Below are positions 9,130-44,871 of a stretch of DNA of 58,777 bases, piece after piece (positions within the stretch are counted from its first letter, which is position 1; every line of letters begins with the position of its first letter). The position numbers were made by a program, and so were the translations under genes. This DNA is from a virus. Location of the stretch: positions 5 through 58,781 of IMG/VR virus record IMGVR_UViG_3300002514_000020; one strand, 5' to 3'. The notes below the pieces were generated by a model, which worked only from the letters and a program-made list of their open reading frames with translations, made no database searches and was not told the DNA's origin.

Positions 9130-9414
9130 ATGTGTGGATGTACTGAAAACAAACCAACCATATCTAATTGGAAGACAATTAAGGAAGGAGTAAGGGCTGC
9201 GCCAAGAGTAGCCAAGCAAATAGCGAACAAACAGTTCGTTCCACAGGAAGTTTTCGAGGAAAGGTTAGCCATCTGCGTTAGCAATGAATGTGAGAAGTTC
9301 CAGCCAGAGGGGCATAGATGTAGGTCGTGTACGTGCTTTCTGAAAGCCAAGACCCGTCTATCCCTTGAAGAATGTCCCGAAGGAAAGTGGAAGAAATATG
9401 AGCAAGAAGGATAG
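9130..9414 (+). CDS. Cys-rich zinc-finger protein upstream of terminase
   Basis: A 94-residue protein with a C-terminal four-cysteine module: RLAICVSNEC, CRSCTCFLKAK and ECPEGKW. This layout is shared with small phage proteins of the DUF6171-like type (Cx2-6C, CxxCxC, CPxGKW). ATG 9130 is preferred because it follows a TAnnTTTG element. The frame is open back to an ATG at 8956, which would add 58 residues of unclear character. Its end overlaps the terminase start by 17 bases. It occupies the place where a small terminase subunit is often found, but it does not look like one. Confidence 0.7.
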   Translation: MCGCTENKPTISNWKTIKEGVRAAPRVAKQIANKQFVPQEVFEERLAICVSNECEKFQPEGHRCRSCTCFLKAKTRLSLEECPEGKWKKYEQEG

Positions 9415-11657: not shown

Positions 11658-11665
11658 TACATTTG
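11658..11665 (+). promoter_or_regulatory. Candidate -7 element (TACATTTG)
   Basis: An exact TAnnTTTG just after the terminase stop, about 36 bases before ATG 11702. No -33 TTG is seen. It could give a separate transcript for the abundant protein that follows. Confidence 0.4.
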
Positions 11666-11701
11666 ACGCATATAGTACAAACCCAAAAAAAAAACATTAT
11701 C

Positions 11702-20481: not shown

Positions 20482-21240
20482 ATGAACACGAACGACTTTG
20501 TTTCCATAAACCAACTACTCTCGGAGATACTTGTTTTCTGTAACGATGAGAACCTTCGTCACGGACAGACAAAGGGTTTCTACCAGTTGCAGTTACGCAA
20601 CGCGATTGACGAACTATCCATTGACACCTTCTTTGACGAACGGACGGTTGACCTACCATTAGACCCAGAACTCTTACAGTTGGATATGCCATCAAACATG
20701 TTCAACATCAGGGAGATTTACCTATGGAGGGGCGATTGTTGTAGTCCCGAAACCAGCGTTAAAGTGTGGTGGAAACGGCTATTCAATAATAAGTGGGGTG
20801 GGACAAACTACACCGCAAACCAAAAGGAGAACGGTAAAATGCAACATGACCCGTTCTTGAAACCATCATTTGACAGTAACACAAGAAGCACCGCCAACCT
20901 GTTCTACGCTAATTTTCAGAACGGTCTTGTCATGTTCTCCGCAAATAGCGCAGCATACCCCAATGTAAGGTTTGTTGGTAACGGCTTCGGGGGGGAGATA
21001 AACGAACTACCGATTGTTCCCAGATTTCTAAGGGAGGCGGTTGTTGATTTCGTTGTAGAGAAAATCCTATTTGCCAGAAAGAAGCGCAGTAAAGAAGACC
21101 GCGCTGACTGGATGGACGCTTACAATAAGCTGACAAAACCTTATGATGGTAGTTGGGCAAAAGCCCAGCACAGAATATCATCTCTCAATACATGGGAGCG
21201 TGAAAGCATAAAAGAATATTTAGGCAAGTATGACCTATAA
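20482..21240 (+). CDS. Tail ring/adaptor-like structural protein
   Basis: A 252-residue protein, third of the trio. It starts with a helical segment (FYQLQLRNAIDELSIDTFFDE) like that of ring and tail-tube adaptor proteins of crAss-like and other short-tailed phages, has a beta-rich middle (NMFNIREIYLWRGD) and ends with two helices (FLREAVVDFVVEKILFARKK). The stop overlaps the next start (TAATG). The match to known ring proteins is by design and gene order, not by a motif I can name. Confidence 0.55.
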   Translation: MNTNDFVSINQLLSEILVFCNDENLRHGQTKGFYQLQLRNAIDELSIDTFFDERTVDLPLDPELLQLDMPSNMFNIREIYLWRGDCCSPETSVKVWWKRLFNNKWGGTNYTANQKENGKMQHDPFLKPSFDSNTRSTANLFYANFQNGLVMFSANSAAYPNVRFVGNGFGGEINELPIVPRFLREAVVDFVVEKILFARKKRSKEDRADWMDAYNKLTKPYDGSWAKAQHRISSLNTWERESIKEYLGKYDL

Positions 21241-26247: not shown

Positions 26248-26973
26248 ATGAAGAATTTATCCACCCCCCTTATTATATGTCTTTACGCTATCATTCTGGT
26301 AGTGTGGTTCTTTGCCCCAGACACGGATTTAGGAAATATAACCCTTAGTTGGATGGCTGCGCTTGGTGCTGCTGGACAAAGTGGCATGTTGGGTGGAATG
26401 GTGAACAAAGCCAAAGAGGGCGGAGACAAGATTGAAAGCCTGACCAGAGAAAGGCACGCAGCCCACAAGCAGGGAGCCGCAGGTGTGGTTCAGATGATAC
26501 AGGGTGTGGGGATGGAGAGCATTGGCAGAAGGAAGGAAAAGAAAGCAGAAGCACTATTCCCAGAACTTATTGACCCCTCACGCGCACAGGCGCACTCGAA
26601 CTATCAAAGGATGGAACGTGGCGCAGCCACAGGGAGCCTGTTTCAGAATGAAGTGAACACCTTGATGCAAGGGCAAAGGGGGAGAGAGGCAGCAGTAGCA
26701 CGGATGGCTGGCACAGGCGGTTCAGCTTTACAGGCAATGGCATTATCCTCAAGAGTATCTGGGGAACAGAGAAATGCGCTCATGTCGGGCGTTATGGCTA
26801 ATCGAGACAAATACACAGCGTTGGCTGACGCAACATCAAAAGAGATGTCTCAAAGAAAGCTTGAGTTGAAAAGCTGGAAGTATTCTCAAAAGATGGCTGA
26901 TGCCAAGAAAATGAAGAGTGCTGGTAGAGCGAACATGCAAGCTGGCTTGGCGAACACGATGAACGCAGCATAA
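26248..26973 (+). CDS. Internal virion / ejection protein, gp14-like
   Basis: A 241-residue protein with one N-terminal hydrophobic span (about residues 7-24, PLIICLYAIILVVWFFA), a Gly/Ala/Met-rich segment (ALGAAGQSGMLGGMVNKAK) and then long charged helices rich in Ala, Met, Arg. Size, the membrane segment and place after the tail nozzle gene resemble T7 gp14 (196 residues), which leaves the virion and forms a pore in the outer membrane. It is the first of an ejection-like trio with 26973-29078 and 29137-44871. Confidence 0.6.
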   Translation: MKNLSTPLIICLYAIILVVWFFAPDTDLGNITLSWMAALGAAGQSGMLGGMVNKAKEGGDKIESLTRERHAAHKQGAAGVVQMIQGVGMESIGRRKEKKAEALFPELIDPSRAQAHSNYQRMERGAATGSLFQNEVNTLMQGQRGREAAVARMAGTGGSALQAMALSSRVSGEQRNALMSGVMANRDKYTALADATSKEMSQRKLELKSWKYSQKMADAKKMKSAGRANMQAGLANTMNAA

Positions 26974-29078
26974 TGGCCAAGAAAAGGAATAAAAAAAAAC
27001 AAGCGCGAAGCAGAGGACGGAGGGGAGTTAATCCGCCTAACGCTGGCAACCCCAATAACTATATCAGCCAGTCCAATAATCCCACATCTTCCGCGCCACC
27101 AAGCAACCCTACCGCAAGCTTCTTCGGACAGATGGGAGCGATAAGGCATCCGAAAACGCCCTCTTCTGGTATGGCTGCGGCAAAAGCCAGAGGGTCAGCA
27201 GCAGGAAAATCAGCAGTAGCCAGACTACTTGGGAAAACACCACACACAGGAACCCCTGATGGTGGTGGCAGTATAGCTGACATCTTCGGACAGATGGGTG
27301 ATTTAGGTGGTATCTCTGGCGACATGGGAAACCCTGATATGCTTGGTAATCCAGCGAAGTATGAAGACGCAAACAGGGGTCATTTGTCACTTGAGCAATA
27401 CTACCCACACTACATGGAGAACCCTGTGGTATCTCACGTTCAAGGCTCCATGATAGGAACCCAACCAATATTTGTTGAAAGCGGTTATCTTGCTCCCATT
27501 GGGATGCTCCACGCCAGAAAAAAGGTTCTCACAGACGCAGCCAAAGAAGCATATTACAGGCAGAAGAAAGTACAGGAGCCGCCTGAAAAAACACCGTTTC
27601 CTGATGCAGCTTGGGAGGAAACTCATGGAGCGTATGAGGGAGATATTAACCAAGCGTACTACGAGAAGTACAAGGAAATTTATATGCGACACGGTGGAGA
27701 TGGCGCATCAGCAAAGTTTGAGATAGAAGAGTGCGGCAGAGCGCTTAAAGCAGACGCAGCCCTCATCGATGAAGTAGCAGAAAGGGTGCAGAAAATAGAA
27801 GACCTACCTGCTGGCTCTTTCAAGCCCCAAGCTACTATGGATATGGTCTGGGACTTCTATAATAATATTGATGAATTTATAGCAGCATCTCACGATGAGA
27901 AGCAAAAGATGTTCCAGCGCTTCGGATATGGTGCTAAATTACCAACGCTGTATGCTGACCACATGAAGCAGTATGTCGATAAGGACATTGCTACCAAGCT
28001 TGGTATTGAAACTTTAGATGGGGTGGACAAAAAACTACTGGCAAAAACAACGAGTTCATACCTAACGCCACCCAAAAGGAAGTGGTTGGTTGACACTTTC
28101 ATGCAAAACAACAAAGCCGAACTAACAGGTCATGGTGGTGTGTATGCAGGTAAAAAACCTGCTTATGTTAGAGAACAAGTAGAGAAAGACATCGCGAACT
28201 TCTACAAAGCCAATCTCGGAATTACTTGGACACAGGTTTCTGATGGAGGTGATGGTGGTGGAGGCGGCAAGGACACCCCAACTCTCTATCGCTCCATCTA
28301 TGAGAGCAAACAGCAGATAACCGATCTGGTCAAATACGCTGGAAACGAGAGTAATTTGAGGTCTGGGCTGTTGGATGAGAACAACGACATCACATTCCCT
28401 GACGGAACGGTGGCGCAGATATTCTCGCTTGAAGTAGATGATCTCGGAGGGATGCAGCTTGACATCGGACTGGGAGCAACGGACAAAGAATGGCGCACGT
28501 TCACAGGCGAGGAAATAGGAAAGCTGATGGACAGCGACATAAACAGAGACGATTTCGATGGAATAGACAGAGACGCGGTTCCTATGGGAGCGTCAATGGA
28601 AGGGAAGCACATGGGTTCAAACATCGGCTTTGTCAAGGTTAAAGATGGAAAGGTCGGCAAAAACCTTCTTAGTGTTGCGCAGGTCGGAACAACGAACGAT
28701 AGCGATATGAGAATGGTGGCTGTTTCCGAGTACAGGTTCGGGTTAGCTGCTGAAAAAGCTGCTGCCTTCGCCAAAGACCTTGCGAGAGTACGGGAAGAAA
28801 GAAAGGATGGCACTAAAATACAAGACATCGACTTCGGAGACGACCAGTTTGCAGAAGCCCTACTGAAGTTTCAAGTGCTGTCAGACAACGAGATGATTAC
28901 AGGCGTAGACGATAACGGCTTTACCGTTCGCTTCCTCAGAGACATGCACAACCCAGCAGTTGTAGCAGAACTTGATAATCAGATTGACGACAGCTACCAC
29001 AAAAAACTCTTTAGGAAACGACCCAAAGCTGGCGAGGGCGGAGTGGTCTTTGATGAGACTGGCGGTGGGGGAAAGTAG
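26973..29078 (+). CDS. Internal virion protein, gp15-like
   Basis: A 701-residue protein coupled to the previous gene by TAATG. It starts with a very basic tail (MAKKRNKKKQARSRGRRG), has a Gly/Pro/Ser/Ala-rich disordered part to about residue 125 with two copies of FGQMG, then a long helical and mixed domain and a Gly-rich loop (SDGGDGGGGGK) near residue 430. No catalytic motif seen. Length is close to T7 gp15 (747 residues), and the position is the same. It probably sits inside the capsid and forms part of the conduit for DNA. Confidence 0.55.
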   Translation: MAKKRNKKKQARSRGRRGVNPPNAGNPNNYISQSNNPTSSAPPSNPTASFFGQMGAIRHPKTPSSGMAAAKARGSAAGKSAVARLLGKTPHTGTPDGGGSIADIFGQMGDLGGISGDMGNPDMLGNPAKYEDANRGHLSLEQYYPHYMENPVVSHVQGSMIGTQPIFVESGYLAPIGMLHARKKVLTDAAKEAYYRQKKVQEPPEKTPFPDAAWEETHGAYEGDINQAYYEKYKEIYMRHGGDGASAKFEIEECGRALKADAALIDEVAERVQKIEDLPAGSFKPQATMDMVWDFYNNIDEFIAASHDEKQKMFQRFGYGAKLPTLYADHMKQYVDKDIATKLGIETLDGVDKKLLAKTTSSYLTPPKRKWLVDTFMQNNKAELTGHGGVYAGKKPAYVREQVEKDIANFYKANLGITWTQVSDGGDGGGGGKDTPTLYRSIYESKQQITDLVKYAGNESNLRSGLLDENNDITFPDGTVAQIFSLEVDDLGGMQLDIGLGATDKEWRTFTGEEIGKLMDSDINRDDFDGIDRDAVPMGASMEGKHMGSNIGFVKVKDGKVGKNLLSVAQVGTTNDSDMRMVAVSEYRFGLAAEKAAAFAKDLARVREERKDGTKIQDIDFGDDQFAEALLKFQVLSDNEMITGVDDNGFTVRFLRDMHNPAVVAELDNQIDDSYHKKLFRKRPKAGEGGVVFDETGGGGK

Positions 29079-29136: not shown

Positions 29137-32100
29137 ATGGCAATTCCTTTACAGACCGCGCCTGATGATGTAACCTCTACCGCCACAGGGAAACCAAAGG
29201 CAGGTGGCGCGGAAAGCATGGCTGTTATAGAAGCGCCTACGCCTAAAGCTGGCGGAAAGGAGCAAGACCCACCAGTTGAGCCAGAGAAATTTACGAAATT
29301 CTCTATACTCAAGGAACTTCAAAGCCACTTAGGAAGAAATGCATCACCAAATAAATTCGGTGTCACCCTTAAACAAGAGGGTGGTAAAAAGAAGATTTAC
29401 GATTTCCTTAATGATAAGCGTGGGGGAACCTTGCCAGAGTTCAATGAATGGGCAAAGGCGTTCGATTACGTTGCCCCACCACCAGAACCAGTTGAGGGGG
29501 TTCCATACAAGCTAACCCCAACACAGAGAAGGGAGGCTGCCAAGAATAAGAAGGAGTTTGGGACTAAAGCGGCAGGGGAACTTTTTGAAAATACGAAAGG
29601 GGCAGGAGACCTGTCGGAATACAGGAAACCAGTCGAAAGGTCAGAGCGGCTTTTACCAACAGAGGCAGGGGAGTTCTATACGTGGTGGAACACCGACCAA
29701 GATGTGCTGGCGTGGAGACACGAAATCGCGCTCAAACATAGGGTTGACCCAGACCCAATGGACGCTGACTATGATTATGTAGCCGCGTGGAAAGCTGGTA
29801 TTGTCCCAGAGAAAACTGACGTTGACGAGGGCAAGGCGAGTTCCGCTCGCGCACTACGACCTACCAGTAGAAACAATAAACTAATAGAAGGATGGAAGCC
29901 AACTGACGGAGAGGCATCTTCTCACCTAATGGCATCGGCAACCGTAGATGGAAAGAATGTTGCGTACCCAACCCTATTCCCTATAGACCCAAATAATATC
30001 ACATCCGACCCAAGTGGCTGGATGGAGATGACGGAAGAAAATGGGTATGATAAATGGGACGCGCTAAAAGAAGCACACAAAAGAGGCGAGATATTCTTTT
30101 TCGACACAAGGGAAGAGGCAGAGGGTTTTGCGAAAGGAGACTGGAAAGGGAAAAGACATTGGGCATCAGTTGACCCAGAGACAGGTGGCTACCTGAAAGG
30201 AGAAGCACACCCTACAAGGTGGAAAGAAGAACACTATCAGACATTCGGCTTTGACCCCGATGCTTATGGGATAGATGTGGAACAGAGCCTTGAACTTACC
30301 CTACTGGAAGCACAGAGCAGGGGAGCGTTCGATGATGACATATATCCTGCTGATAGCCCATATCCACTACCAACATGGAAGGAATTAAACCTTACACTTA
30401 GAGAGCCAACGGAAGCCGAGAAGATAGAGCGCGCTGCCAAGAAGGTGGCGAAAGACCGAGAAGCTTTCAGACTACGCAACTCCCTGAACAATCTTGCTGG
30501 GATAAATAAATCAAAGACGTTTCAAGAAGAGATGTCTGGCAGCCAAAAACCAAAGAAAGAGGGGGAAGAAGAAACCCCAGAGACCAACCTTAAAGAAGGT
30601 ATCACACCAGAGACCGAGCAGTTCCATAGATATAAACCGCTTTCACAGCTTGGTATGTTCTTCCTTACGCCAGCAGAACGCTCCATTGCGGAGGTATTAA
30701 AGAAAGAGGTTGAAGTAATTGAGAAGTCAGAATTGAAAGCCGATGGCAGCCTAAGACCTGACAGCGACCTATCTCAAAAATGGTCAACGCGCACCCTTGA
30801 TAAAGCACAGAGCATTAGTCCTGAATGGTCTCCATTATACAACCCAACGGACTATACAACCAAACTGGCAATGTTCGGGGTTTATGAGGCGGCAATGGCG
30901 GAGTTGCATGAGGCAGCTTATCAATTCAAGAGGGTTGCTGTTGGAGCAGGTTACTCGTATAAAAGAGAAGAGAAGGACGCAAAGGAGCAACCAGAAATTT
31001 CAAACCAACAGTCTCGAACTTTAGAGAATTTAGCAGCTAATAGAAGGAGGGCGCAAGAGACATACGAGCGGCTTTACAGTCTATTCGGAATGGACGCAGA
31101 TGGAGTGTACCCAGAGGTTTATATTGGTTCAGGTGATAACCACGCTTTAAGGGACACATACAACATGTTTGCTTTAGGAGTGGAGCGTCTTACCCCAGAC
31201 TTTCTACCGAACTCAAGTGCTACCGAGCAATTCTTGGAAGCAAAGATGAGGTTTGAAACTGCGTTCGATAATATGCGTGATATGAGTAGGGTGTTCTTAA
31301 CGAACAACTCTTTTGCTGAAACAAAAAACACATCCATCCCAAAGCGATTTATGGAGAAAGCCCTTGAAGGGAACATGGGTGCTGTTGCTCCTAAGAATAT
31401 GGGTATAGGTATCAAGACGGAGGAAGACGCGAGAATGAACGCTTTTTCCAGCCTATACCACAACGGCATCTATGATGTAATGAAACAAACAGGCATGTAT
31501 TCCAATAAGACTTTGGAAGACCTGATGGATAAAACAGGAAGAAGCCCAGTTACAGGCGAACTGTTTGCTGACTTTTCTGGTGGTCTTGGAGGGTTCTTGC
31601 CAACCTTATATGTAGCCAGAGGAACAATAATGAAGTTCGGAGGTAAGAACGCTCAAATGATGTTCCAAGCTATGAGGCGGAGTAAAGTTCCATCCACCCG
31701 TAGATGGGGAGTGTTAGGGAATATTCTACTTGAAGAGGCTGTATTTCAAGCAGCAGGTGGTGAGATAGGTGCTGGTGCTGGTTTTGGCGCAGCAGGAATG
31801 GCTACCGAGTTCATGCACGGAAGGACATTCGGAGGTAAGTATGGTGGTATCATATCAGCCATAGGGAATAAGTTTCTGGCAATGGCGACCACAGGAGTTA
31901 CCATGACATCAGCAATGGAGTTCTCGAAACTTACTGGCGCACTTGCCCACAATATAATTGAAGGTGGTGACGGAGAGCGGTTCATTGAAGCACTCCAACT
32001 TCGCAATAACAGAGGGGAGATGATTGAACTCTCGGATTTTGCCAAGCATAAGTTGATTGAGATGACGGTAAACTCCTTCTTCGGGCTTGCGCACGGAAAT

Positions 32101-35100
32101 TTGAAGGCTGATGTCAGAGACCATATCAATCCCCGAATAGATGAGGGCAAAGTTAAGTGGTTGGATAAGGAGCGTATGGAGATACGTCAACTCGCACGCG
32201 AACTTGAGAAAAAGGGGTACAAGGATATGGCTGACGAGATGTACCATTGGAACAACTCGCTCCCCCTGACGATCAGAAGAAACATGTCCCTTATTTCCGA
32301 GGTGGGAAGAAGCGCAGACGCTACTGGTGTTCCATATTTTTCAAAGAACCAGCGCTACAAGGTGGCTGACGGTGATGTTGGAATGACGCGAGAGGTCACG
32401 AAGGATGAAAAGAACAAACTCATTATCAACGAAGACGGACACCTTGTTTACTCTGAACCTAAAAAGAGCATTACAGACGAGTTGAGTGATGCAGATATGG
32501 TCAAGGAAAACCCTGACTTCGACCTTGCGAAAAAACATAACATCTCTGACGACATCTATGAGTTGGCGTTCAGAGGAAAGACCGCAACCGAAACTGCTGC
32601 GGAACTTTACGGTCAGATAAAGAAGGGTTCTATTGTTGTTAAAGACCATAATGGGGTTCCTATCAAGGGGAGGAAAGCAAAAGCGCGCCTGAAAGAAATT
32701 GTTGAGGCGGCACACAAACAAAAAGCTGTACCATCTATTGATAAGCTGCGTGAACTTGAGAACGAGTTTATGATACACACAGCCATAGGTAGAAACGGAG
32801 AGAAGTATCGTGCGAAGCAAAAGGAACTTGGTCAGATAGAATACGAGATCAAATTCCATAAGGAACAAGTGGAAAAGGCTGGGGAAGAACCCAGTCAATA
32901 TGATGCAAGTGCCATTGCTATCAAAGACCTTGAGGTTAAAAAAATCAAGAAGCAAGCGGAGATTGATGGGATGAAGGTGGATAAGCGCATACGTGAGATC
33001 GCTAAGAATGTAGAAGACATCCAAGACCAGTACAATAACTGGCGAGCCAGCGCTGACAGACTATTCTATGAGCGACCAGTTGAGCGCATTGGGGTTCGTG
33101 ATGTGGTTACTGACCCAGCCGAAATTGACCAACGGGTGCAGGAGTATGTTGATAAAGAAGGTGAGACCTTCCAACTGAAACCAACCTACAAGATTGATGG
33201 GAAAGAGGTTAATGAGAAAACCGCGCTGGAATACCTCAACAAAAGCAGTAACCGTGACAAGATACTTCGTGGAGAAAGTGACGTAAGCGCGGAAAATATA
33301 ACTGGCGACAACGCGGTTATTAACTCGCTTAGACGGATTAACAGAACAGAAAAGCCGTTCGGTGAGTACGCAGAAAGCGAGAGCAGGAACACAACCTTCA
33401 AGGATGCTGATGGCGCACAGGTATATCGTACCGAAGAAGATGGCTCGTACCGAAGAGGGAAACTTGTAAAAGAAAAGGGCGGAGAGTACACGTTCCGTAG
33501 TGGGTCAGGCAAGGAAGCCGACAGTAAGCCAGTAAGCAGAAGCGAGGAAGGTGGTGTTGATGTCAGGGAAACCTTAGAAGGAGCGGTTGAGCAAGGAGCG
33601 GTTGTAGAGAAAGAAGGGACAAAAGGGCGGCTTATTAAAGGTGAGGGCGGTAGGTATGCTATTGAAACAGCAGACGGTAAAGTGTATGATGTAGCCCCAT
33701 CGCAACCCAAAGACCGACTTGAAGACCACAACATCAAACCATTGGGGAGTGAGCGGAGAATAGAAGACACCGACAAGCTGGGAGAAAAGGGATTTACTTT
33801 GGCTGACCCGTTGATGGAGCAGCCAGTACGAACCAAAAGAAAGCAGCCGTCAGAGTTGAGTGCCGATGGGAAGCGCATCACAAAAGGCAAAGAGGTCTAT
33901 GAGGTCAAGGAGGTAAGAAAAAACGAAAAAGGAAAGGTCACATCCATTGGTGCGCAGAAGCTTGATGCCAAAGGAAAGCCAGTAGGCAAGAAAGTTTCTT
34001 TGCGTAATGACGATGTGCTGTACCAAATGGAGTTGTTCAATAGACAACCACCAGCGAAGGGAGTGAAATTCTCAACTGTTGAGGAACATGAGGGCGAAAG
34101 ATATATTGTTGAGCATGAGGGTGAACATGAGGTCTCAAGAACAAAACTGACGACTGTTGAGAAACAACGGGAAGCCGAAGTCGAAGCCGAGCAGAAAGCG
34201 GAGGTAAAGAAGCAAGAAGCGGAAGCGGAAGCGGAAGCGGAGATTGATGAGTTCTTAAAGGAAGAACCAGAGTTAGCAGAGGAACTTGAGAAGGAGTTTG
34301 AAAGCGAGAAGGTTGAAGAGAAAACACCAGAGACGGAAGAGGTTGAAGCGGCAGAGGAAAAGCCGAAAAGCCTTATAGATGAGTTGCTGGACGAGTTGAC
34401 TGACGAAGACCTTGCAGAATTTGGTCTTGAGACAACAAAGAAAGGCACGATTGAGGCGATGGAAACCAGTAGTGGTAAAACGCCAGAAGAGATCAAGAAA
34501 GCGAAAGTCCGTGCGCTGATAGGGAAGATGTTGAAAGACAAGAAAGAACTTCTTGCTGACCAACGGTTTCAGAAAAAGGTTAGTGACCTTTACGATGCCA
34601 TGTCAGAGCAAGCGGAGATGGTGGGTAGTAAAGAGCAATACGCAGAGTATGTTGCGTCAGTAGCGTCTGGTCTAACACCAAACGTACACGGTAAGAGACA
34701 TATCGGAAGTAAAGCTAAAGGCGTTGTATATACACACCCAACAGAGAAACTTGGCTTCGTGGATGGATATGATGGTTTGCGAGCAGAACCATATTTAATA
34801 AACCAGCGAAAAGAAGAGGCTATAGGGGAGTTCGATACATCGCCCCTTATCGCTGGCGAGTACAGGATAGAAGCACCAGAGCAATCACACATGCTTGGCT
34901 CTGTAGAAGACATAAGTAATTTCACAAAAGGTATAGAAGATGGAAAATACGGAGGAATACCAACAGAACAATCTGGTACGGGCGGAGCGGCTAAAGGGGT
35001 TAGACCCGAAGGTGGCAAGGCGACTGGCGAACCCGATGGCGGAAGTGGAGGAAAGGGACAGTCTGGAACAGATGGCGACAGGGGAGAAGTGGATGCCGAC

Positions 35101-38100
35101 CCAATCAAACCAGATGCTCCCAAACGAACCGTTCTTACATCAGATGAGGGCGAAGGAGATACAGGGCGACCCCCACTTCACGGAACTCATTACGGAGACC
35201 TCCCAGAACCCACAACTCATATCAATGATGGAAAATACGATATAGATGAACACCAGCTATATGCGTTAAACCAGATACTCACACGCTTCTATGATAATGA
35301 AGGTGAGGGATTTGTACTGGCAGACGGTACAGGAGTAGGTAAGACCAGAATACTTCTTACCTCCGCCAGAGAGATTGCCGACAGGACAGGAAAACCTGTT
35401 CTCATCATTACCGAGAATAAGCAGATTTTAGAGACCGCCTTTAAGCCAGAGGCGGAAAGAGCAGGGGTTAATCTCGATAATATTGAGATGACCACCTATG
35501 ATGGCATCAAAGGTGAGGGTGGTCTGAAAGAAGATTTCCAAAAAGACTATGGTGCAGTAATGTTTGATGAGGCTCACAACCTTAAAAACCCAACATCAGA
35601 CAAATCTGCCACAGCGCTGACCATTACGGCTGACAAACATTTGTTTGCCACAGCAACCCCAATGGACAGACCGACAGGAGCCACATACTTCTTTGAGAAG
35701 ATGCTTGGTATTCCAAAGGCACAGATCATGGCGCAGCTTGGTTTCAAGTTGAAGCCTATGGTACACCCAAAAACAGGCAAGACATTCGACATGCCAATCC
35801 TTATGGAAGGTTTCGAGTGGAAGGATGTGTTCCAAAACATGCTTAAAATGAGGGACGATGCTGAATTGAAAGGCGCGTTCCTTAGACGACACTACCCATT
35901 CTACGGGGAAATCCTTGAGAACAACCTATTCCTTTCTACAGAGGACGCGGCAATAACTGACGCGCACGTAAGAAACTGGTTAGACAAGATTGAAGACGGA
36001 GGGAAGAAAGCTGGTTTTATGAAGGGGCAGATGTTGTTCGAGACATCCCGACTGAATGAGAAGCTGAAACTTGATGCGCTATACCCAGAAATACAAGAAG
36101 CGCTTGTTAGAGGGGAGAAGGTAATTGTAATAGCAGAGACCGTTAACCCAAGCGTCCTTCGTGGCATGACCGAAAGGGAGTATTTCGAGAAGCGTCAATG
36201 GGGCATTAAGGCACAACTATCGTCAGAGCATGGCGAGAAGGTTGATGAACTGATGAACGCGCTAATGATGGTTCGTGGTGGGGAGAGAAACGAAGGGACA
36301 ACCCACGATGGTAGTTTAGCGGAGCATTACATGGCGATGGCTCGCATGAGAGATGCTGTAAGGAAGCAGGAAAAGCTGGAAGAGATACTTGACTTCGAGC
36401 AGATAATTCTTGAGATACCAGATGTCAAGCGGTTTATTGACATGGCGGAGAAAATCATGGATGACAAATCCATGCCTATTGAACTACGACAGTTTGCCGA
36501 AGAGATTGAAATGAACGGTAATCCCGTTAAAAGAAACCAAGCATACATTGACGGGGAGACCACCCGAATGAGAGAAAACAAGCGCCCAATAGACCGTGAG
36601 GGTGACGCTATAATCAACTCTATGATTAACGAACTCGGAGGTCGCCTGAAAGAAGATGGGTTCTCGTTCGGTAAAATTTACGGCAAGGGAGATAAGACTG
36701 GTGAGGTTGACAAGTTCCAAAACGATGAGAACGATGTGGTTATTGCTACACCAAAGTCGGGCGGTACTGGCATCAGCTTGGATGACCAAGTTGGCGGTAT
36801 GCCAAGAAAGATGTATATAACTACTGCAAACTTCGCAGGAGACCTGTTCCAGCAGATACTCGGACGTATCAGTAGAAAGAACACGAAGTCGGCATCGTCA
36901 GCAGAAATCATATACGCCAATACGCTACGTGCTGGCATGGCAGAGACCGTGTATTCTGACGGCAAAAGAAAAGATATAGTCGCTCAAAAACTCAAAGTTC
37001 TCAAGGCAATCCAAGAGGGATTAGACCCAGATGTTGCCAGAGGATTGAAGATTGACGGGGAAGAGGGTGATGTTACCGAAGAGATTACTGGTTCAGGAAA
37101 AAGCAAGGCGGTTCCATTGACCGACATTCTTCCACCAGCGAAAGGCAAACCGAAGCCGAAGCCACCAGAAGACCCGAACGAGCCGTTGGTTCTCAATGAA
37201 GACTACGCCAAGTGGGTTAGAGATGAAGAGATTTCTGACGACATCATTTTGGGTATTGCCCAGAAAAGAATGGATGGAAAACCTCTAACCAAAAGGGAGA
37301 AAGCCATACACGATCATCCAGTCAAGTATAAAGAAATTCAAGAACTTATTGATGAGCCACCAAAGGAAGAGAAGCCGCGTGGAGCAAGGCCAAGTGGAGG
37401 CTCGTCATCAAGACCGAAAGCAACTCCAAGTGGAGGTTCTGAAAAGCGCCCAGACGGAGAGAAAGTTACTGGTGCAAAGAAAAAAGTGAAAGAAGCGGAG
37501 GCAGGTGTTAAGAAAGCACAGGACGAAGCGGAGGCAGAGAAAGCGGCTGGAAAGAAGGACGTTCCATCAGAGGTCAAAGGTGAGCAGGACAGAACGCTTA
37601 AAGCGTTGACAGAGCCGTTCCAAGACCCGAATGGAAGCACTTGGGCGCAGTTCAATGAAAAAGGAGAGGTTGTCGCTGTCGGGTATTTGGAAGATGGGAA
37701 GGTGGTTCAGAATGACAGCCCGAACAACGAACGAAATCTAAAGCGCATCAAGCCGCTATGGGAAGAGTTCAAGCGCAGAAACGAGATAGCCCATTCCCCA
37801 GAACTGGCAGACGTTCTACAACTTATAGGAGAGAAAGGGGCTGATGGAGCAAGGGAGTTCTTCGAGCAGTTCACTTATGAAGAAAGAGGTACATCCCCAT
37901 CATCAACCGATGCTGAAAGCGCGGCAGGAGTAGCGAACTGGCTGTTCCATAAAGAACCTTCGCAGACCAAATTCATAGCTGAAAAAACAAAGGAAGCACT
38001 TACGGGAGAGAAACCAACACCGTCAGAGAGCGGAGAAAAGGTGCGTGCGGCAGAGGAAGAATTGAAAAAGGCACAGGAAGAGTTGGGTAAAGCCGAAGAG

Positions 38101-41100
38101 GAAGAGACGAAGAGCGTTGAGGAAACACCTACGGAAGAGCCACCCAAGAAGGAAGTAGAACCAGAAGCACCGAAACCGATAAAGGATTATGATGAGGTTC
38201 TACGGAACCCAAAGGAAGTAGAGCGGTTATTGAAAGAGAAGTTCATCTCTGATAATAAAGCGTTCTCCAATATGGAAAGCTGGAAGGTCGCTGGAAATGA
38301 GAACCAAATTGAATATGGAGATTTCATAAGCAATGAAGGGAAAAAAGTAACCGTCCACGATGAGAGGGGATTAAGGGAGGCTGTTATCGGAAACGTATTA
38401 AGGAACACTCCATACGCCAAAGACGTTAAGAATGTCGAGTACGATAAAGCGACAGGACATGTTAGATTTACAATAGAGTTTGAGAACGGGAAAGAAGTAA
38501 AAGCAAGTCTTTCAGCAGTTGAGCCGAACCTGCTCGGAACAGAGCATATACCAAATAGCGGTTCTGATGCGTCAATCACAAGGACTGGTCTATTGACAGC
38601 GCGGTATGCTGTTGAGGCTGGATATGATAATGCTGGCGGTCTTACCGCTCTGACAAAAGCGTATGTGTCAGCTAAGAAGAGGTCTCCAAGCAGAAGAAGC
38701 CTTACTGAAAAGAAGCTTGTCGAAGAAGTTGAAGATGTTATTGTTCCTAAACAACAGGAAAAAAGAACATTCGGAAACCCTAAATCCCCAAGAGTTCGTG
38801 GTGGTGTGCATGAGTTCAATGACAACGCCACAATCCAAGACCCATTTTCAGGCGAGGTATTTACTGTGCTGTTCTCGGACACCAAGCAGCCAATGCTGGT
38901 AACACACGACCAGAAGGCACACTCAATCATACCACACCCTGATAGGGAGTTTATTCTGATAGGCGAAAGCGGAACGATTGACGCATCAAGAATGTATCAC
39001 AATGATGTGACCGATGCGTACCTGCAAAAGCATATAGACGCTGGTGGTAAGGTTATTAACCTTGATGAATACAACGGGAATGTTCGTGAGCGTAAGGGTG
39101 AAGGTTTTGTAGAAGACTTTGACCCAGCCAACTACGGGGGGAAGCCCGTCTATGCGGTAATGGAGGATTTCGCCAATGCTCAAAAAGACATGGAGAATAC
39201 TGTTTATTTGGTATTCAGATCTATTGGGAAAGAATACGACAAAGCACTTGAAGACCTTGAGGACAGCGAAGGAACAGGGGCGGAGGCGCAGGAAATTCGT
39301 GACGCAATAGCCGAAAACCAAGCAGAAAGCAGTAAGCATATAAAGGAGTTTACGGAAAAACGGACAGCAGCCATAGAGAAGCTGAACAACTACATTCTTG
39401 AGCGAGCAGAAAAGAACTACAACTTCTTCGACCAAGTAGAGAGGATGTCGTTTCTTACTGACTACGAGCGTGCAACAACATTAAGAGACCAAGTGACCAA
39501 AAATCTCGACACTCTGATTGATGAGTTGGTTGAGTTGAGGAACACGCAAAAAAAGGCAGCAGAGACCGAGACACGCGGAGCAACCAAAGAGGGAGAGTTC
39601 AATGCTGTTTCTGGGTTCAGGGATGCGGTCAAGTCAGACAAGAGCGCTGGTGTTGTGGTTAAAGGTTCAGAGACCTCAATCTCAATGCCTGACGGTTCAG
39701 AGAGAGGGGCGCGGTTTGCGGTTGTTGAGGGAAGCGAAGTTGCTCCTTCACATATTCTACACTCCGTAGATAGGGTTGAAGTTCATCCATTATACCCGAC
39801 ACAGGAGGGAGTGGAAACCATCAATCCAACAGATTACAAGAACGATAAGCAAGCCTTAAAGCATACATGGGACATTTCCAATAATGTCAAGCCACACAAA
39901 ATGATTACCAATGCGGCTGAACCGTCCGTTGGAGTTCCTGTTATTTCTATTGATGGGGTGGTAAAAAGTGGAAACGGAAGAACCATAGCGTTCCAAAGAG
40001 CCATACGCGAAGGGAACCTTGAGGCGTACAATAAGCACCTTCAAGAGCATATATCGGAGTACGGTATCAAACCATCAGAGATTGCCCACATGGAGAACCC
40101 GATGTTGGTTAAGATTGATATGTCCAACATTGGTGGGGAGTACACCGTAGTTGAACTTTCTAAATTCAATGGAGACCCACAGAAAGTAAAGTCACCAACA
40201 CAGAAAGCTATTGAGTATTCTCGAATGGTTGCTGGTGAAGAGTTTGATGGAGTTAAGAAAAGAATGGCGGAGGTTCTGTCAGAAGTTGGGGCAGATGGCA
40301 AGCCGCGATACAAGAACTTCTCCGAGTTCTTTAAGGATAAAGCTGCCGTTAAGAGAATGATTGATGTCCTCACCCAAGAGAAGGTTATTCTTGAGAAGGA
40401 CGCGGCAGTTTATTTCGATGCTGCAAAAGGTCAGTTTACAGATCAAGGGAAGGTTCTGTTCCAAACCGTACTACAAGGTGGGTTGTTTGACGCTCGCGTT
40501 GTTGAAGCGCTGATTGATGGAAAACTCAAGGGTCTTAATAAGGATAAGGTCAGCAAGCTGCTCTTACCGTTGTATAAGATGAAAGCGCTTGACCCACAAT
40601 TCGACATCGTTCCTATGGTGAATGAGGCAATGTATCTCATCTCACAGCACAGAGCATCTACCTACACAGGAGACCTTGCTTCGTTCTTGAAAATGCCAAG
40701 AACTGCTGGCGAAACACCATCAATCCCAGAGGTAAATGCTCTTGCTATTCTCATTGGGGAAACATCAGGTAGAGCCGCTACATATAAAGCCAGAGACATC
40801 CAGAGGTTCTTGGATGAATACACTAAGCGCGCACTTGAAGCCAAAGGCGGAACCCTGTTTGCGGCTGACCCAAAGAACCTTACACCAAGAAGCCTGATTG
40901 ATGGGATAGCGTCAGAGAACGCACACTACGAGAAGCTGGTCGATATGCTCCGCTTTACTGATGAAGTAAAAGGAACAAAGGATGCTATGATGCGAAAGAA
41001 TACGCAGGGAAAAACAGAGCATCAAGTGATCGGTTCAAGTATTCCTTTCAGACACACAGGCAACGCAGCCGTTTGGAGGAAAAGTGAGTTGAATAACGTA

Positions 41101-44100
41101 CAAACCCTGCAAGACATTGCCAGAGACTTCTTCCGTGATGTAGGAATAAAAGGAGGTAAGGAAGCAAGGGCAGGTCATCAGAAGGTTGCTGGTAGGTCAG
41201 CGCTTGGGTGGTACAACAGCGAGAACGGCATCTTCATGTTCAAAAGCATTGACGACCTACCTACCATATTCCATGAGTTCGGACACAAGGTAGACCTTGA
41301 GAAAGTGTTTGGAGGAAGAAGCGGCTCTGGCGAATTGAACTTCACTACACAGGAGTTGCTTGTGATTGAGGCGCACGAAAGAGGGAACCACACCGCTATT
41401 GCCCAGCACAGAAGAACAATGGGTGATAAGGTAGTTGACACCCTTCTGCATAAGAATGAAATACGAACACAAGCGATTAAGTTCTTAGAGGATATAGACC
41501 ATTACCACAAGGCTAATGACGAGAAGGGGCTAAGAGAGGCGCTGGCAGAAGGATTCAGTAGGCTTATTGTAAACCCAGAATACTTGGAGACCAAAGCCCC
41601 GATATTCCATGAGTTCCTGACCGACCTGATTAAAACAAATCCCAAACTGGAAAGGGCAATGTATGACGCAAAGATTAAGGTCGAGATACTTAAAAAGAAA
41701 GACACCCGATTTAGAGATATGGTCGGTGGTGTTGCGTATTACAAGACAAAGGCTCGACTATTTTCAGCAATGAAGTGGCTTCGTGATGGCGATGCTATTT
41801 CAGCGTTGTTCGATAGCGACCATTGGATAAAGAAAATAAACGATGACCTGCTAAGAGAGAACCCAAATCTCCCAACTGGGCAGCAACCTATTTACGATGT
41901 TCTGTCATCAAGGGGGATTTCTGGCAAGGTCAACCAATGGGTGAATAGAAACCCATTCCTTACCCACGTTGACGCGTACGGAAAGAAGCATATACAAATT
42001 CTTCATAATGTGAAGCCGTTGACCAAGATACTTGAGCCAGCAATGGATAAGATAGGTATTCAGGGAACAGACCTGATACTGGCTTACCATCGTGCGGTTG
42101 ACCTTCATAGGATTTCCAAAGAAGCCAAGACGGAGTTCATGGATTTACAGTCCAAAGCACAGAAAGCTTCAGCGTGGTTGGAGATGCACACCAATGCTGA
42201 CGGTAAAATAGTTGGTGTCGGAGCGATGGAGATTGCTAAAAGGAGAGCGGTCATACTGGACTTCAAAAAGAAGAAGCCAGCGCTCAAGCGTAGAATGACC
42301 TATAAGGATAAGGCAATCAACAACAACATTAAGGAGGTTGAGGATGGTCTTGATGCGTTCAGAAGAGACTTCGGGAATGATATAATCAACGACCTAAAGA
42401 CCGACCTAATCGACTACAATAATGCTCTATTGGAATACGCAAGGGAGGGAGGTATTCTTACCACCGAACAGATTTCTGGTATGCGAAGAGATAGTGAGTT
42501 CTATTTCCCAATGAAAAGACATTTCGATAGCTGGGACAGAATAGGAGGCAGGAGAGTTGGCAAGGTCGGCACAAGCGTAAAGAAAAGAAACCTTGAGACC
42601 ACAAAAGGGTTTGAGGCAGGTGCAGTTTCTCGCGCACTTGAAAGTCCTGTTGCCAGCCTATACGACCACACACACGACATGCTCGTTAAGGTGGATGTGA
42701 ACAATAAGAAACGAGCGGTGGTCGATGCGCTGTTCAATGTCCGTCATGGAGCGACAAAGGTTCGTGGAGCAGGAGACCATACGGTAGAGATATGGAGAGA
42801 CGGGAAGAAGGAATACTACCAGATACCAGAAGAATACTCAAAGGAATTTGATGCGATGTCCCTTGCTCCCGATTGGAGCATGAAGTTATTACATCTCCCT
42901 GTTCGCGTACTTCAAAAAGGAGCGATAACGTATAACCCAGAGTTTGCGATTAAAAACTTTACACGCGACCAAGTTTCGTCTTCATTTTATAGTGAGCATG
43001 GCTACAACCCCATTATCAATCCATTGAACACGGCACGCGGAGTTCTGATGGCGATACAGGCACAAGCAGGTAGGGAAAGCGCCAAGACCAAAGAGGTTAT
43101 TGATAACTGGTATGCGTCAGGGGCAGCCATGTCAACCATGAACGAGATACTTACCGCAAAAGAAAATCTGTATAGCCCAAAGCAGAAAGAACACAGCGTT
43201 GTTCTTCTTCACGAACAGATAAAGGGTGGGCTACCAGCGCACCAGATAAGGGAGTACAATAGAAGGGTCAGTAGGTTCAATGCGTATATGAGCAAGGCTG
43301 GCAATAATACCATTGGTGCGTTCGGAAATTTCTTGTCAGCCGTAACAACAATATCAGAGACCTCAACCCGACTGGCTTTATACACCAATGCCTATAACAA
43401 AACGGGCGACCACAACTTAGCGCTGAAAGAAAGCAGGTTCGGTGGGGCGGATTACGGGCAATCAGGTAGCATGCAAATGATAAAATGGATGTCGGTAATG
43501 ACCCCATTCATTAACGCGAACCTACAACACACATACGAAACTGTTAAAACAGTTTCCACAAAAGAAAGAGCGATTAAAACCGCTAAGCTTGGAGGGATAA
43601 TTGCCATGATGTCTGCTGGTAACTGGGCATTACATAACCTTTTCTATGATGACATGATGGGTTATGATGACGGTCGCGTCAAAAAAGAATGGGACAGAGC
43701 CAGTATACATGAGAAGCTGCACTATTGGAGGATTTGGATTCCACACCTAAACGCAATGGCGAAGCTTCCGAAAGGCTCTTTCGGCATGGACTTCGGAACA
43801 ACAATCGAAGCTGGGCTTGACTACACACAAGGTAATGACCCAAGACTGATGGATGTGCTTTTAGGGGAAATTGTGAAGGAGAACTTAGGAACATTCACTT
43901 CCATCAAGAGCAACGCTCCACAGACATCCAAGGCTACTGCTATTATGAACAACTGGAACGACTGGACTGGAAGAGCAGTTGAACCAACATACATGCAGGG
44001 CATCAGTATGTATAGGAGGTATGATGCTGACACTCCACAGATATTCAAAAAAATGGGTAAGATGTCGGAGTGGGTGGGCATCAATGAGAACTATGGTGGC

Positions 44101-44871
44101 GTTTCTCCAAAGAGACTTGACGCAGTAACATACGCGCTTCTTGGTGGAGGTTTCTACAACGTTATTGATATGGGAGACAAGGCGTTGCAGGGATTAGGAG
44201 TGTTTGAAAAGAACCCCACCACCACAAAAGAGTGGGTTCAAGGCCTTCCTATTATTAAGACGATGTTCGCAAGAGAGGCTACGGGAACGCGGTCTTCATA
44301 CACGCGAGATATGTTTGATATTACAGATGAGATGAGCAGACTGTATAATGATTATCGTGACAGTCTGGGAGCCATCGACTATGAAACATATAAAATAACA
44401 ACAGGCTCCAAGAGGAAAGCTGAACTTCTCACGCACTACATGATACATTCTCAACGGGGTTCCAATGAGATACACAAACTGAAAGCAGCTATTGGGAACA
44501 TGATGAAAACATCTCAACAGTTGGCGGATCCCAAGTCCCTTCTCTATAAAGTTGTTAGTGGTTTGATGGGTGATGTAGAGGATAAGGAGGGAACAATGGA
44601 AGCATTTGCAGACTACTACAGGGAAAATGCGTTTGAGGCGATAGCGTTTGAAAGTGAGAGCTGGTACAATAACTTCCAAGAGTACAGGTCTCTTTCGGAT
44701 GATAAATCCGTAGCTGCTGATGATGAGGCAGGGTATCACCGCTACAGGGTCAGCCCGAAAACACTCATATACTCTCACCTGAATGACGAGAGGGTGATGC
44801 AGCTTTTAGGGCTGGATGATGTGGTTAAGATACTGACACTCAAGCAGGGAAAGAAGAAGCGCAAAAAGTAA
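29137..44871 (+). CDS. Giant polyvalent ejection protein (5244 residues)
   Basis: One uninterrupted frame of 5244 codons. Visible parts in order: a virion-type module with YDYVAAWKAG and VDGKNVAYPTLF (about 210-345); hydrophobic Gly/Ala helices (about 865-935); an Ala/Glu/Lys coiled coil (about 1670-1745); an SF2, strawberry-notch-like helicase with Walker A GTGVGKT (2064-2070), DEAH (2144-2147), TAT (2172-2174) and QxLGRxxR (2573-2580); two more coiled coils (about 2780-2815, 2970-3015); a DdrB/ParB-like domain with KSGNGRT (3610-3616); a zincin protease motif HEFGH (4046-4050) with a likely third ligand E4138 (ALAEGF); and an LPD38-like helical C-terminal region (about 4580-4860) with a membrane-like helix near 4820-4838. 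Function is inferred: carried in the head, ejected with DNA, acting against defence or helping DNA entry, as P1 DarB/DdrB do. Confidence 0.85.
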   Translation: MAIPLQTAPDDVTSTATGKPKAGGAESMAVIEAPTPKAGGKEQDPPVEPEKFTKFSILKELQSHLGRNASPNKFGVTLKQEGGKKKIYDFLNDKRGGTLPEFNEWAKAFDYVAPPPEPVEGVPYKLTPTQRREAAKNKKEFGTKAAGELFENTKGAGDLSEYRKPVERSERLLPTEAGEFYTWWNTDQDVLAWRHEIALKHRVDPDPMDADYDYVAAWKAGIVPEKTDVDEGKASSARALRPTSRNNKLIEGWKPTDGEASSHLMASATVDGKNVAYPTLFPIDPNNITSDPSGWMEMTEENGYDKWDALKEAHKRGEIFFFDTREEAEGFAKGDWKGKRHWASVDPETGGYLKGEAHPTRWKEEHYQTFGFDPDAYGIDVEQSLELTLLEAQSRGAFDDDIYPADSPYPLPTWKELNLTLREPTEAEKIERAAKKVAKDREAFRLRNSLNNLAGINKSKTFQEEMSGSQKPKKEGEEETPETNLKEGITPETEQFHRYKPLSQLGMFFLTPAERSIAEVLKKEVEVIEKSELKADGSLRPDSDLSQKWSTRTLDKAQSISPEWSPLYNPTDYTTKLAMFGVYEAAMAELHEAAYQFKRVAVGAGYSYKREEKDAKEQPEISNQQSRTLENLAANRRRAQETYERLYSLFGMDADGVYPEVYIGSGDNHALRDTYNMFALGVERLTPDFLPNSSATEQFLEAKMRFETAFDNMRDMSRVFLTNNSFAETKNTSIPKRFMEKALEGNMGAVAPKNMGIGIKTEEDARMNAFSSLYHNGIYDVMKQTGMYSNKTLEDLMDKTGRSPVTGELFADFSGGLGGFLPTLYVARGTIMKFGGKNAQMMFQAMRRSKVPSTRRWGVLGNILLEEAVFQAAGGEIGAGAGFGAAGMATEFMHGRTFGGKYGGIISAIGNKFLAMATTGVTMTSAMEFSKLTGALAHNIIEGGDGERFIEALQLRNNRGEMIELSDFAKHKLIEMTVNSFFGLAHGNLKADVRDHINPRIDEGKVKWLDKERMEIRQLARELEKKGYKDMADEMYHWNNSLPLTIRRNMSLISEVGRSADATGVPYFSKNQRYKVADGDVGMTREVTKDEKNKLIINEDGHLVYSEPKKSITDELSDADMVKENPDFDLAKKHNISDDIYELAFRGKTATETAAELYGQIKKGSIVVKDHNGVPIKGRKAKARLKEIVEAAHKQKAVPSIDKLRELENEFMIHTAIGRNGEKYRAKQKELGQIEYEIKFHKEQVEKAGEEPSQYDASAIAIKDLEVKKIKKQAEIDGMKVDKRIREIAKNVEDIQDQYNNWRASADRLFYERPVERIGVRDVVTDPAEIDQRVQEYVDKEGETFQLKPTYKIDGKEVNEKTALEYLNKSSNRDKILRGESDVSAENITGDNAVINSLRRINRTEKPFGEYAESESRNTTFKDADGAQVYRTEEDGSYRRGKLVKEKGGEYTFRSGSGKEADSKPVSRSEEGGVDVRETLEGAVEQGAVVEKEGTKGRLIKGEGGRYAIETADGKVYDVAPSQPKDRLEDHNIKPLGSERRIEDTDKLGEKGFTLADPLMEQPVRTKRKQPSELSADGKRITKGKEVYEVKEVRKNEKGKVTSIGAQKLDAKGKPVGKKVSLRNDDVLYQMELFNRQPPAKGVKFSTVEEHEGERYIVEHEGEHEVSRTKLTTVEKQREAEVEAEQKAEVKKQEAEAEAEAEIDEFLKEEPELAEELEKEFESEKVEEKTPETEEVEAAEEKPKSLIDELLDELTDEDLAEFGLETTKKGTIEAMETSSGKTPEEIKKAKVRALIGKMLKDKKELLADQRFQKKVSDLYDAMSEQAEMVGSKEQYAEYVASVASGLTPNVHGKRHIGSKAKGVVYTHPTEKLGFVDGYDGLRAEPYLINQRKEEAIGEFDTSPLIAGEYRIEAPEQSHMLGSVEDISNFTKGIEDGKYGGIPTEQSGTGGAAKGVRPEGGKATGEPDGGSGGKGQSGTDGDRGEVDADPIKPDAPKRTVLTSDEGEGDTGRPPLHGTHYGDLPEPTTHINDGKYDIDEHQLYALNQILTRFYDNEGEGFVLADGTGVGKTRILLTSAREIADRTGKPVLIITENKQILETAFKPEAERAGVNLDNIEMTTYDGIKGEGGLKEDFQKDYGAVMFDEAHNLKNPTSDKSATALTITADKHLFATATPMDRPTGATYFFEKMLGIPKAQIMAQLGFKLKPMVHPKTGKTFDMPILMEGFEWKDVFQNMLKMRDDAELKGAFLRRHYPFYGEILENNLFLSTEDAAITDAHVRNWLDKIEDGGKKAGFMKGQMLFETSRLNEKLKLDALYPEIQEALVRGEKVIVIAETVNPSVLRGMTEREYFEKRQWGIKAQLSSEHGEKVDELMNALMMVRGGERNEGTTHDGSLAEHYMAMARMRDAVRKQEKLEEILDFEQIILEIPDVKRFIDMAEKIMDDKSMPIELRQFAEEIEMNGNPVKRNQAYIDGETTRMRENKRPIDREGDAIINSMINELGGRLKEDGFSFGKIYGKGDKTGEVDKFQNDENDVVIATPKSGGTGISLDDQVGGMPRKMYITTANFAGDLFQQILGRISRKNTKSASSAEIIYANTLRAGMAETVYSDGKRKDIVAQKLKVLKAIQEGLDPDVARGLKIDGEEGDVTEEITGSGKSKAVPLTDILPPAKGKPKPKPPEDPNEPLVLNEDYAKWVRDEEISDDIILGIAQKRMDGKPLTKREKAIHDHPVKYKEIQELIDEPPKEEKPRGARPSGGSSSRPKATPSGGSEKRPDGEKVTGAKKKVKEAEAGVKKAQDEAEAEKAAGKKDVPSEVKGEQDRTLKALTEPFQDPNGSTWAQFNEKGEVVAVGYLEDGKVVQNDSPNNERNLKRIKPLWEEFKRRNEIAHSPELADVLQLIGEKGADGAREFFEQFTYEERGTSPSSTDAESAAGVANWLFHKEPSQTKFIAEKTKEALTGEKPTPSESGEKVRAAEEELKKAQEELGKAEEEETKSVEETPTEEPPKKEVEPEAPKPIKDYDEVLRNPKEVERLLKEKFISDNKAFSNMESWKVAGNENQIEYGDFISNEGKKVTVHDERGLREAVIGNVLRNTPYAKDVKNVEYDKATGHVRFTIEFENGKEVKASLSAVEPNLLGTEHIPNSGSDASITRTGLLTARYAVEAGYDNAGGLTALTKAYVSAKKRSPSRRSLTEKKLVEEVEDVIVPKQQEKRTFGNPKSPRVRGGVHEFNDNATIQDPFSGEVFTVLFSDTKQPMLVTHDQKAHSIIPHPDREFILIGESGTIDASRMYHNDVTDAYLQKHIDAGGKVINLDEYNGNVRERKGEGFVEDFDPANYGGKPVYAVMEDFANAQKDMENTVYLVFRSIGKEYDKALEDLEDSEGTGAEAQEIRDAIAENQAESSKHIKEFTEKRTAAIEKLNNYILERAEKNYNFFDQVERMSFLTDYERATTLRDQVTKNLDTLIDELVELRNTQKKAAETETRGATKEGEFNAVSGFRDAVKSDKSAGVVVKGSETSISMPDGSERGARFAVVEGSEVAPSHILHSVDRVEVHPLYPTQEGVETINPTDYKNDKQALKHTWDISNNVKPHKMITNAAEPSVGVPVISIDGVVKSGNGRTIAFQRAIREGNLEAYNKHLQEHISEYGIKPSEIAHMENPMLVKIDMSNIGGEYTVVELSKFNGDPQKVKSPTQKAIEYSRMVAGEEFDGVKKRMAEVLSEVGADGKPRYKNFSEFFKDKAAVKRMIDVLTQEKVILEKDAAVYFDAAKGQFTDQGKVLFQTVLQGGLFDARVVEALIDGKLKGLNKDKVSKLLLPLYKMKALDPQFDIVPMVNEAMYLISQHRASTYTGDLASFLKMPRTAGETPSIPEVNALAILIGETSGRAATYKARDIQRFLDEYTKRALEAKGGTLFAADPKNLTPRSLIDGIASENAHYEKLVDMLRFTDEVKGTKDAMMRKNTQGKTEHQVIGSSIPFRHTGNAAVWRKSELNNVQTLQDIARDFFRDVGIKGGKEARAGHQKVAGRSALGWYNSENGIFMFKSIDDLPTIFHEFGHKVDLEKVFGGRSGSGELNFTTQELLVIEAHERGNHTAIAQHRRTMGDKVVDTLLHKNEIRTQAIKFLEDIDHYHKANDEKGLREALAEGFSRLIVNPEYLETKAPIFHEFLTDLIKTNPKLERAMYDAKIKVEILKKKDTRFRDMVGGVAYYKTKARLFSAMKWLRDGDAISALFDSDHWIKKINDDLLRENPNLPTGQQPIYDVLSSRGISGKVNQWVNRNPFLTHVDAYGKKHIQILHNVKPLTKILEPAMDKIGIQGTDLILAYHRAVDLHRISKEAKTEFMDLQSKAQKASAWLEMHTNADGKIVGVGAMEIAKRRAVILDFKKKKPALKRRMTYKDKAINNNIKEVEDGLDAFRRDFGNDIINDLKTDLIDYNNALLEYAREGGILTTEQISGMRRDSEFYFPMKRHFDSWDRIGGRRVGKVGTSVKKRNLETTKGFEAGAVSRALESPVASLYDHTHDMLVKVDVNNKKRAVVDALFNVRHGATKVRGAGDHTVEIWRDGKKEYYQIPEEYSKEFDAMSLAPDWSMKLLHLPVRVLQKGAITYNPEFAIKNFTRDQVSSSFYSEHGYNPIINPLNTARGVLMAIQAQAGRESAKTKEVIDNWYASGAAMSTMNEILTAKENLYSPKQKEHSVVLLHEQIKGGLPAHQIREYNRRVSRFNAYMSKAGNNTIGAFGNFLSAVTTISETSTRLALYTNAYNKTGDHNLALKESRFGGADYGQSGSMQMIKWMSVMTPFINANLQHTYETVKTVSTKERAIKTAKLGGIIAMMSAGNWALHNLFYDDMMGYDDGRVKKEWDRASIHEKLHYWRIWIPHLNAMAKLPKGSFGMDFGTTIEAGLDYTQGNDPRLMDVLLGEIVKENLGTFTSIKSNAPQTSKATAIMNNWNDWTGRAVEPTYMQGISMYRRYDADTPQIFKKMGKMSEWVGINENYGGVSPKRLDAVTYALLGGGFYNVIDMGDKALQGLGVFEKNPTTTKEWVQGLPIIKTMFAREATGTRSSYTRDMFDITDEMSRLYNDYRDSLGAIDYETYKITTGSKRKAELLTHYMIHSQRGSNEIHKLKAAIGNMMKTSQQLADPKSLLYKVVSGLMGDVEDKEGTMEAFADYYRENAFEAIAFESESWYNNFQEYRSLSDDKSVAADDEAGYHRYRVSPKTLIYSHLNDERVMQLLGLDDVVKILTLKQGKKKRKK

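Follow-up and report, generated by a model that had tools for sequence, protein, structure and literature searches.

The stretch of viral DNA analysed here (58,777 b, hereafter the window, part of a 70,096-b IMG/VR record) contains one gene for a giant cysteine-free protein. With a probability of about 0.85, this protein is the main virion cargo of a phage that has a short tail and a crAss-type muzzle, and the third of its ejection proteins. We observed that the frame starts with ATG and runs for 5,244 codons without an internal stop, a length whose random survival has a probability of about 1e-109. It takes up 26.8% of the window, so that the first-pass annotation, which had described a single open frame of this length filling about 27% of it, was right on both points; since the window is part of a longer record, the share of the contig is about 22%. 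No terminal repeat was found in the contig and no Rfam family in the window. The features of the window are collected in Table 1.

Table 1. Features of the giant protein and of its gene neighbourhood (positions in the window; aa, residues of the giant unless given as a length).
Feature	Coordinates	Strand	Basis
Terminase large subunit	9365..11653	+	PHROG 6681, 3.9e-11
Portal protein	13083..15314	+	Pfam P22_portal, 2.8e-12; PHROG 6547, 5.7e-34
Scaffold-like ORF, 0 Cys	15359..16573		
Putative major capsid protein	16599..17843	+	Position, size, conservation
Muzzle-like tail protein, 1,664 aa long	21240..26234	+	Pfam PF25731 crAss_MUZ, E=6e-11
First ejection-type protein, 241 aa long, hydrophobic N-terminus	26248..26973	+	Sequence; homologues at the same place in relatives G001 and G002
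Second ejection-type protein, 701 aa long, 1 Cys	26973..29078	+	Counterparts without Cys, 799 and 731 aa long
Giant gene, putative ejected polyvalent cargo protein, 5,244 aa long, 0 Cys	29137..44871	+	ORF, motifs, Cys count
Stretch aa 176-225	29662..29811	+	The one part that BLAST aligns with a syntenic giant (G022, 36%, E=3e-5)
SF2/SNF2-type helicase, aa ~2034-2600	35236..36936	+	Pfam ResIII and SNF2-rel_dom for lobe 1; motifs
DdrB-like ParB domain, aa 3520-3659	39694..40113	+	Pfam PF18763, E=1.4e-16; tblastn to P1 DdrB
HEFGH motif, aa 4046-4050, possible zincin metalloprotease	41272..41286	+	Motif only
C-terminal region, aa 4411-5089	42367..44403	+	PHROG 9854, E=3.7e-30
LPD38, aa 4850-5017	43684..44187	+	Pfam PF18857, E=1.3e-11

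The helicase motifs GTGVGKT (motif I), DEAH (II), ATATP (III) and QILGRISR (VI) lie at residues 2064, 2144, 2171 and 2573, respectively, and residues 2034-2178 match the Pfam families ResIII (E=3.8e-7, 30.6 bits, cut-off 22.5) and SNF2-rel_dom (E=4.3e-6, 26.5 bits, cut-off 24.9). The SF2 helicase with all key motifs of the earlier reading is thus backed by its motifs and, for lobe 1, by profiles; lobe 2 is a putative assignment from its motif only. The DdrB-like ParB domain, with the sequence KSGNGRT at residue 3610, matches P1 DdrB directly (tblastn against phages, 30% identity over about 146 residues, E~2e-11), and the LPD38 region has relatives at about 22% identity in Bacillus phage Page, Escherichia phage PTXU04 and Pelagibacter phage HTVC204P (tblastn). 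The profile matches support both of these domains, as well as the proposal that several modules are fused in one chain. The giant therefore carries at least two unrelated effector or DNA-acting domains (SNF2/ResIII, ddrB-ParB, LPD38), which is how polyvalent proteins are recognized. An SNF2-type helicase, DdrB-ParB and LPD38 are likewise fused in the phage polyvalent proteins described by Iyer, Aravind et al. (2017, PMC5512222), where DdrB-ParB and LPD38 are listed as phage-only domains; compared with those proteins, the giant stands out for its 5,244 residues and for belonging to a phage in which a short tail is combined with a crAss-type muzzle. P1 DarB, which had been named as a precedent, is a methylase-helicase dyad (PMC5512222) with an adenine methylase N-terminal to the SNF2 helicase. 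The giant shares the SNF2-type helicase, but no methylase domain was found in it (Pfam, E<0.1), and the precedent has to be qualified accordingly. Residues 1-2633 gave no match to phages by tblastn; searches for related loci returned nothing with the C-terminal 1,278 residues and, with the helicase, only helicases in a short match.

The first-pass annotation had also read HEFGH as the mark of a zincin protease, a domain that is frequent but not required in polyvalent proteins. The motif is present, but no zincin profile was found in the giant (Pfam), and tblastn gave matches at E>3 only. Structure prediction by domain, proposed there as a check, was applied to this stretch, and AlphaFold run without an alignment returned a low-confidence model (pLDDT 37) in which a helix and three strands are followed by a helix bearing HEFGH. 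This order is compatible with that of the polyvalent zincins in PMC5512222, although a model at pLDDT 37 proves nothing. Because of the missing profile match and the low pLDDT, the zincin is unproven.

The genes of the window follow the order terminase, portal, scaffold, capsid, rings, muzzle, a protein of about 240 residues, one of about 750 and the giant. Profile matches and gene order place the giant gene among the late virion genes, a location typical of polyvalent proteins, and make it the final member of a row of three ejection-type genes (241, 701 and 5,244 residues) downstream of the tail genes, after the muzzle gene; the late structural context and the ejection logic of the earlier reading are in agreement with this arrangement. 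The muzzle-like protein matches PF25731 with 41.6 bits (cut-off 27), so the phage has the muzzle protein (crass fold) of the Crassvirales. Assignment to the Crassvirales by the capsid protein found no support at the sequence level, as hhalign against crAss001 gave a probability of 0.5%. The same small-medium-large layout is found in T7 gp14-15-16 and N4 gp52-51-50, whose large last members, T7 gp16 and the N4 virion RNA polymerase gp50, contain no cysteine, like the giant. However, their enzymatic domains differ from those of the giant, and no sequence match to either was found in the phage search. The DxDGD motif of the crassvirus virion RNA polymerase was found neither in the giant nor in the syntenic giants scanned. 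The window also holds three candidate DNA methyltransferase genes (141-827, 1033-2397 and 51807-52547; the first by motif only, the other two by PHROG), which might have complementary anti-restriction functions.

Relatives were sought with the putative capsid protein, which led to 3 and then to 61 related viral contigs, all metagenomic IMG/VR records. In G001 and G002 homologues of almost all genes from the terminase to the 241-residue protein follow one another as in the window, the exception being the short ORF 11663-12448. A counterpart of the 701-residue protein is present in G001, and the place of the window giant is taken by one of 3,529 or 3,741 residues. A mid-size protein followed by a giant or by a pair of large ORFs was observed in about 25 records. 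Outside the stretch at residues 176-225, no homology between the giant and the syntenic giants was found by BLAST, phmmer, HMM or hhalign; direct searches of the relatives' records with its second half gave nothing, and helicase, ParB and LPD38 were not found in the syntenic giants (Pfam). The shared role is therefore assigned by position and not by orthology. The cargo giants at this locus in G001-G029 have the same gene order and the same exclusion of cysteine as the window giant, but many of them are split by a ferritin gene, whereas the window giant is a single chain.

The absence of cysteine appears to be the best sequence evidence that the giant is an ejected cargo, and it had been overlooked in the first-pass annotation. 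The giant contains no cysteine, whereas the remaining ORFs of the window, at 1.43% Cys, predict about 75. Its in-frame codons include neither TGT nor TGC, whereas TGG (47), AGY (103) and CGY (67) are used normally; this rules out base composition as the cause and indicates selection at the protein level. The syntenic giants contain 38 cysteines in 28 non-redundant ORFs (59,513 aa), as compared to about 467 expected from the surrounding ORFs; the ORFs had been selected for large size and for a Cys content below 0.4%, which somewhat favours the count, and the filter removed no large ORF at the cargo position. T7 gp15 and gp16, N4 gp50, gp51 and gp52, and P22 gp7, gp16 and gp20, which are known ejected proteins, have no cysteine at all, and crAss001 gp46, gp47, gp49 and gp50 have 0, 1, 1 and 3, respectively. 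Portals, tail and replication proteins of T7, N4, P22 and crAss001, taken as controls, show ordinary or moderately reduced contents. The LPD38/ParB relatives of unrelated phages are also devoid of cysteine (Page, 1,679 aa; PTXU04, 2,197; HTVC204P, 1,253; Y3, 3,421), including Page, the phage of a Gram-positive host. Exceptions are the G001 giant, with 10 cysteines, and P1 DarB, with 9, a polyvalent protein that a long-tailed phage packages, and so not all injected proteins lack cysteine. The near-absence of cysteine is an empirical signature found here and not a published definition: the word "cysteine" does not occur in PMC5512222, while for N4-type virion RNA polymerases, which lack cysteine, it has been noted that disulfides would hinder injection (PMC3915230). 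As a minor observation, the ORF directly after the giant (44896-46632, weak tail fibre match) is at the opposite extreme, with 28 cysteines in 578 residues. About residues 1650-1800 of the G001 giant (L013/L014), a histidine phosphatase-like stretch (RHADT...) was recognized by eye, and it holds three of the 10 cysteines of that protein.

Two other roles of the giant were considered. It could be an internal structural protein, such as a scaffold or core, that stays in the particle and owes its lack of cysteine to capsid assembly. The cysteine-free scaffold-like ORF and the cysteine-poor portals of N4 and T7 are in line with this, but a shell protein would have little use for a helicase and a ParB domain, and the gene comes after the tail and muzzle genes, like those of proven ejected proteins; we regard this role as improbable. 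Still less probable is an enzyme that serves phage DNA metabolism outside the virion and lies by chance among late genes, for although a helicase and a ParB domain could serve replication, 0 of about 75 expected cysteines is unlike the other enzymes of the window (the methyltransferase at 1033-2397 has 6 in 454 residues), and the depletion is common to the giants at the same position in about 25 relatives.

With the giant as ejected cargo, we infer the following sequence of events. Packaging would place the protein in the head, and an envelope channel would first be formed by the two smaller ejection proteins. The giant would then be threaded, largely unfolded, through the portal, tail and muzzle, and would refold in the cytoplasm one domain after another. 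Inside the cell, its SNF2-type motor and DdrB-type ParB domain are most likely to act on the entering genome, protecting it from restriction or pulling or remodelling the DNA, or on host DNA, and the possible metalloprotease may cut the giant into units. Stray thiols would be unaffordable to such a chain, because it must unfold and cross into the cell from an oxidising virion or envelope.

In ten relatives the cargo consists of two ORFs with a ferritin gene (PF00210, E=6e-15) between them, and here we observed a cysteine pattern at the facing ends. Cysteine is the last residue of the first ORF in nine of the ten and the last but one in the tenth, while the second ORF has a cysteine at residue 3-5 in all ten; one or two further cysteines occur in a few first halves and one in a single second half. 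The pattern persists between subgroups whose halves differ at 15-20% identity. Homologues of the first half that are part of a fused protein (G011, G015 and G023; about 29-36% identity over long matches) have no such cysteine. G016 and G019 were rejected as true splits, since their halves overlap in different frames without terminal cysteines, and were judged to be frame breaks in one gene. The ferritin gene, which encodes a conserved protein of 155 residues (e.g., L089:10190-10654), is absent from the window; it lies between the halves also in L116, L087, L112, L084, L109, L099, L107, L082, L094 and L102, and before the giant in L090 and L092. To our knowledge, phage ferritins are unusual.

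The cargo of crassviruses (phi-crAss001 gp45-gp50 and phi14:2 g065-g067; PMC10172136) resembles the giant in being encoded after the muzzle, in measuring thousands of residues and in being nearly cysteine-free; the window giant differs in being a single chain without terminal cysteine. The pattern recurs independently in crassviruses. In the three virion proteins of phi14:2 the only cysteines are at residue 1797 of 1797 in g067, at 3 and 2179 of 2180 in g066 (RNA polymerase), and at 3 of 1421 in g065. In 30 crassvirus proteins (66,240 aa), 38 of the 70 cysteines lie within 10 residues of an end, as compared to 0.6 expected, and all 30 follow the order of a first protein with cysteine at the C-terminal end only, a middle one with both and a last one with the N-terminal end only; the 11 genomes (records L122, L125-L129, L131-L133, L135 and L136) are related, as are those of the ten split relatives, so counts of genomes are not independent events. 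The interrupted genes or recoded stops of cr116_1, cr108_1 and cr4_1, as well as crAss002, were kept outside this count, and most of their clear ends fit. The gp50-type and some other crassvirus proteins keep a few internal cysteines. Cysteine is not mentioned in the crassvirus structure paper (PMC10172136) or in a review, and the terminal pattern in split cargo seems to be new, although it may have been noticed earlier elsewhere.

This pattern may reflect a reversible coupling. Disulfides would join the abutting C- and N-termini, so that separate proteins follow as one string, which would be fed through the tail N-terminus first and would come apart in the reducing cytoplasm. Ejection of crassvirus cargo N-terminus first and partly unfolded has been proposed (PMC10172136). 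In the window giant, peptide fusion would replace the disulfides, as the fully fused state without couplers, and it would need no cysteine for this reason. From the sequence patterns, we give even odds to the proposal that crass-like phages string their giant cargo by C-to-N disulfides and that the window giant is the one-peptide, cysteine-free alternative. Gut hosts are anaerobic, which makes the time at which such disulfides would form a difficulty for this proposal. A little short of even odds is given to another explanation, which concerns only the coupling: the terminal cysteines would be tolerated at flexible ends, bind metal or dock on a common partner. In its favour, protein ends are exposed and flexible, a bond is seen in no structure, and metal coordination is possible; against it speak the direction of the pattern in 30 of 30 proteins, its persistence at 15-20% identity, and the lack of these cysteines where the same N-terminal module occurs in fused homologues.

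How proteins of 2,000-5,000 residues leave through a channel of 30-50 angstrom and then act as enzymes is an open question (PMC12633501, PMC10172136). Exclusion of cysteine offers a homology-free, sequence-only test for ejected cargo, useful for many unannotated giants, and the terminal pattern allows the order of the ejected proteins and their linkage to be tested. The size of the giant, which had been called striking, is indeed large at 5,244 residues but not unique, since crassvirus cargo proteins reach 4,491-4,946 residues and the P23-45 tape measure has 5,002 (PMC10770324). The terminal pattern also flags a probable annotation error: crAss002 gp33 (L142:21243-33980) has its first cysteine at residue 35 as annotated, whereas a start at the internal MSC of residues 33-35 would fit the pattern, and the annotated start is therefore probably 32 codons too early. 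Finally, unlike the giants, C1-type cargo proteins (gp45-like, phi14:2 g069) often have a pair of cysteines 8-9 residues apart, at 390/398, 224/232, 211/219, 259/267 and 369/378 (records L122, L128, L129, L133 and L136).
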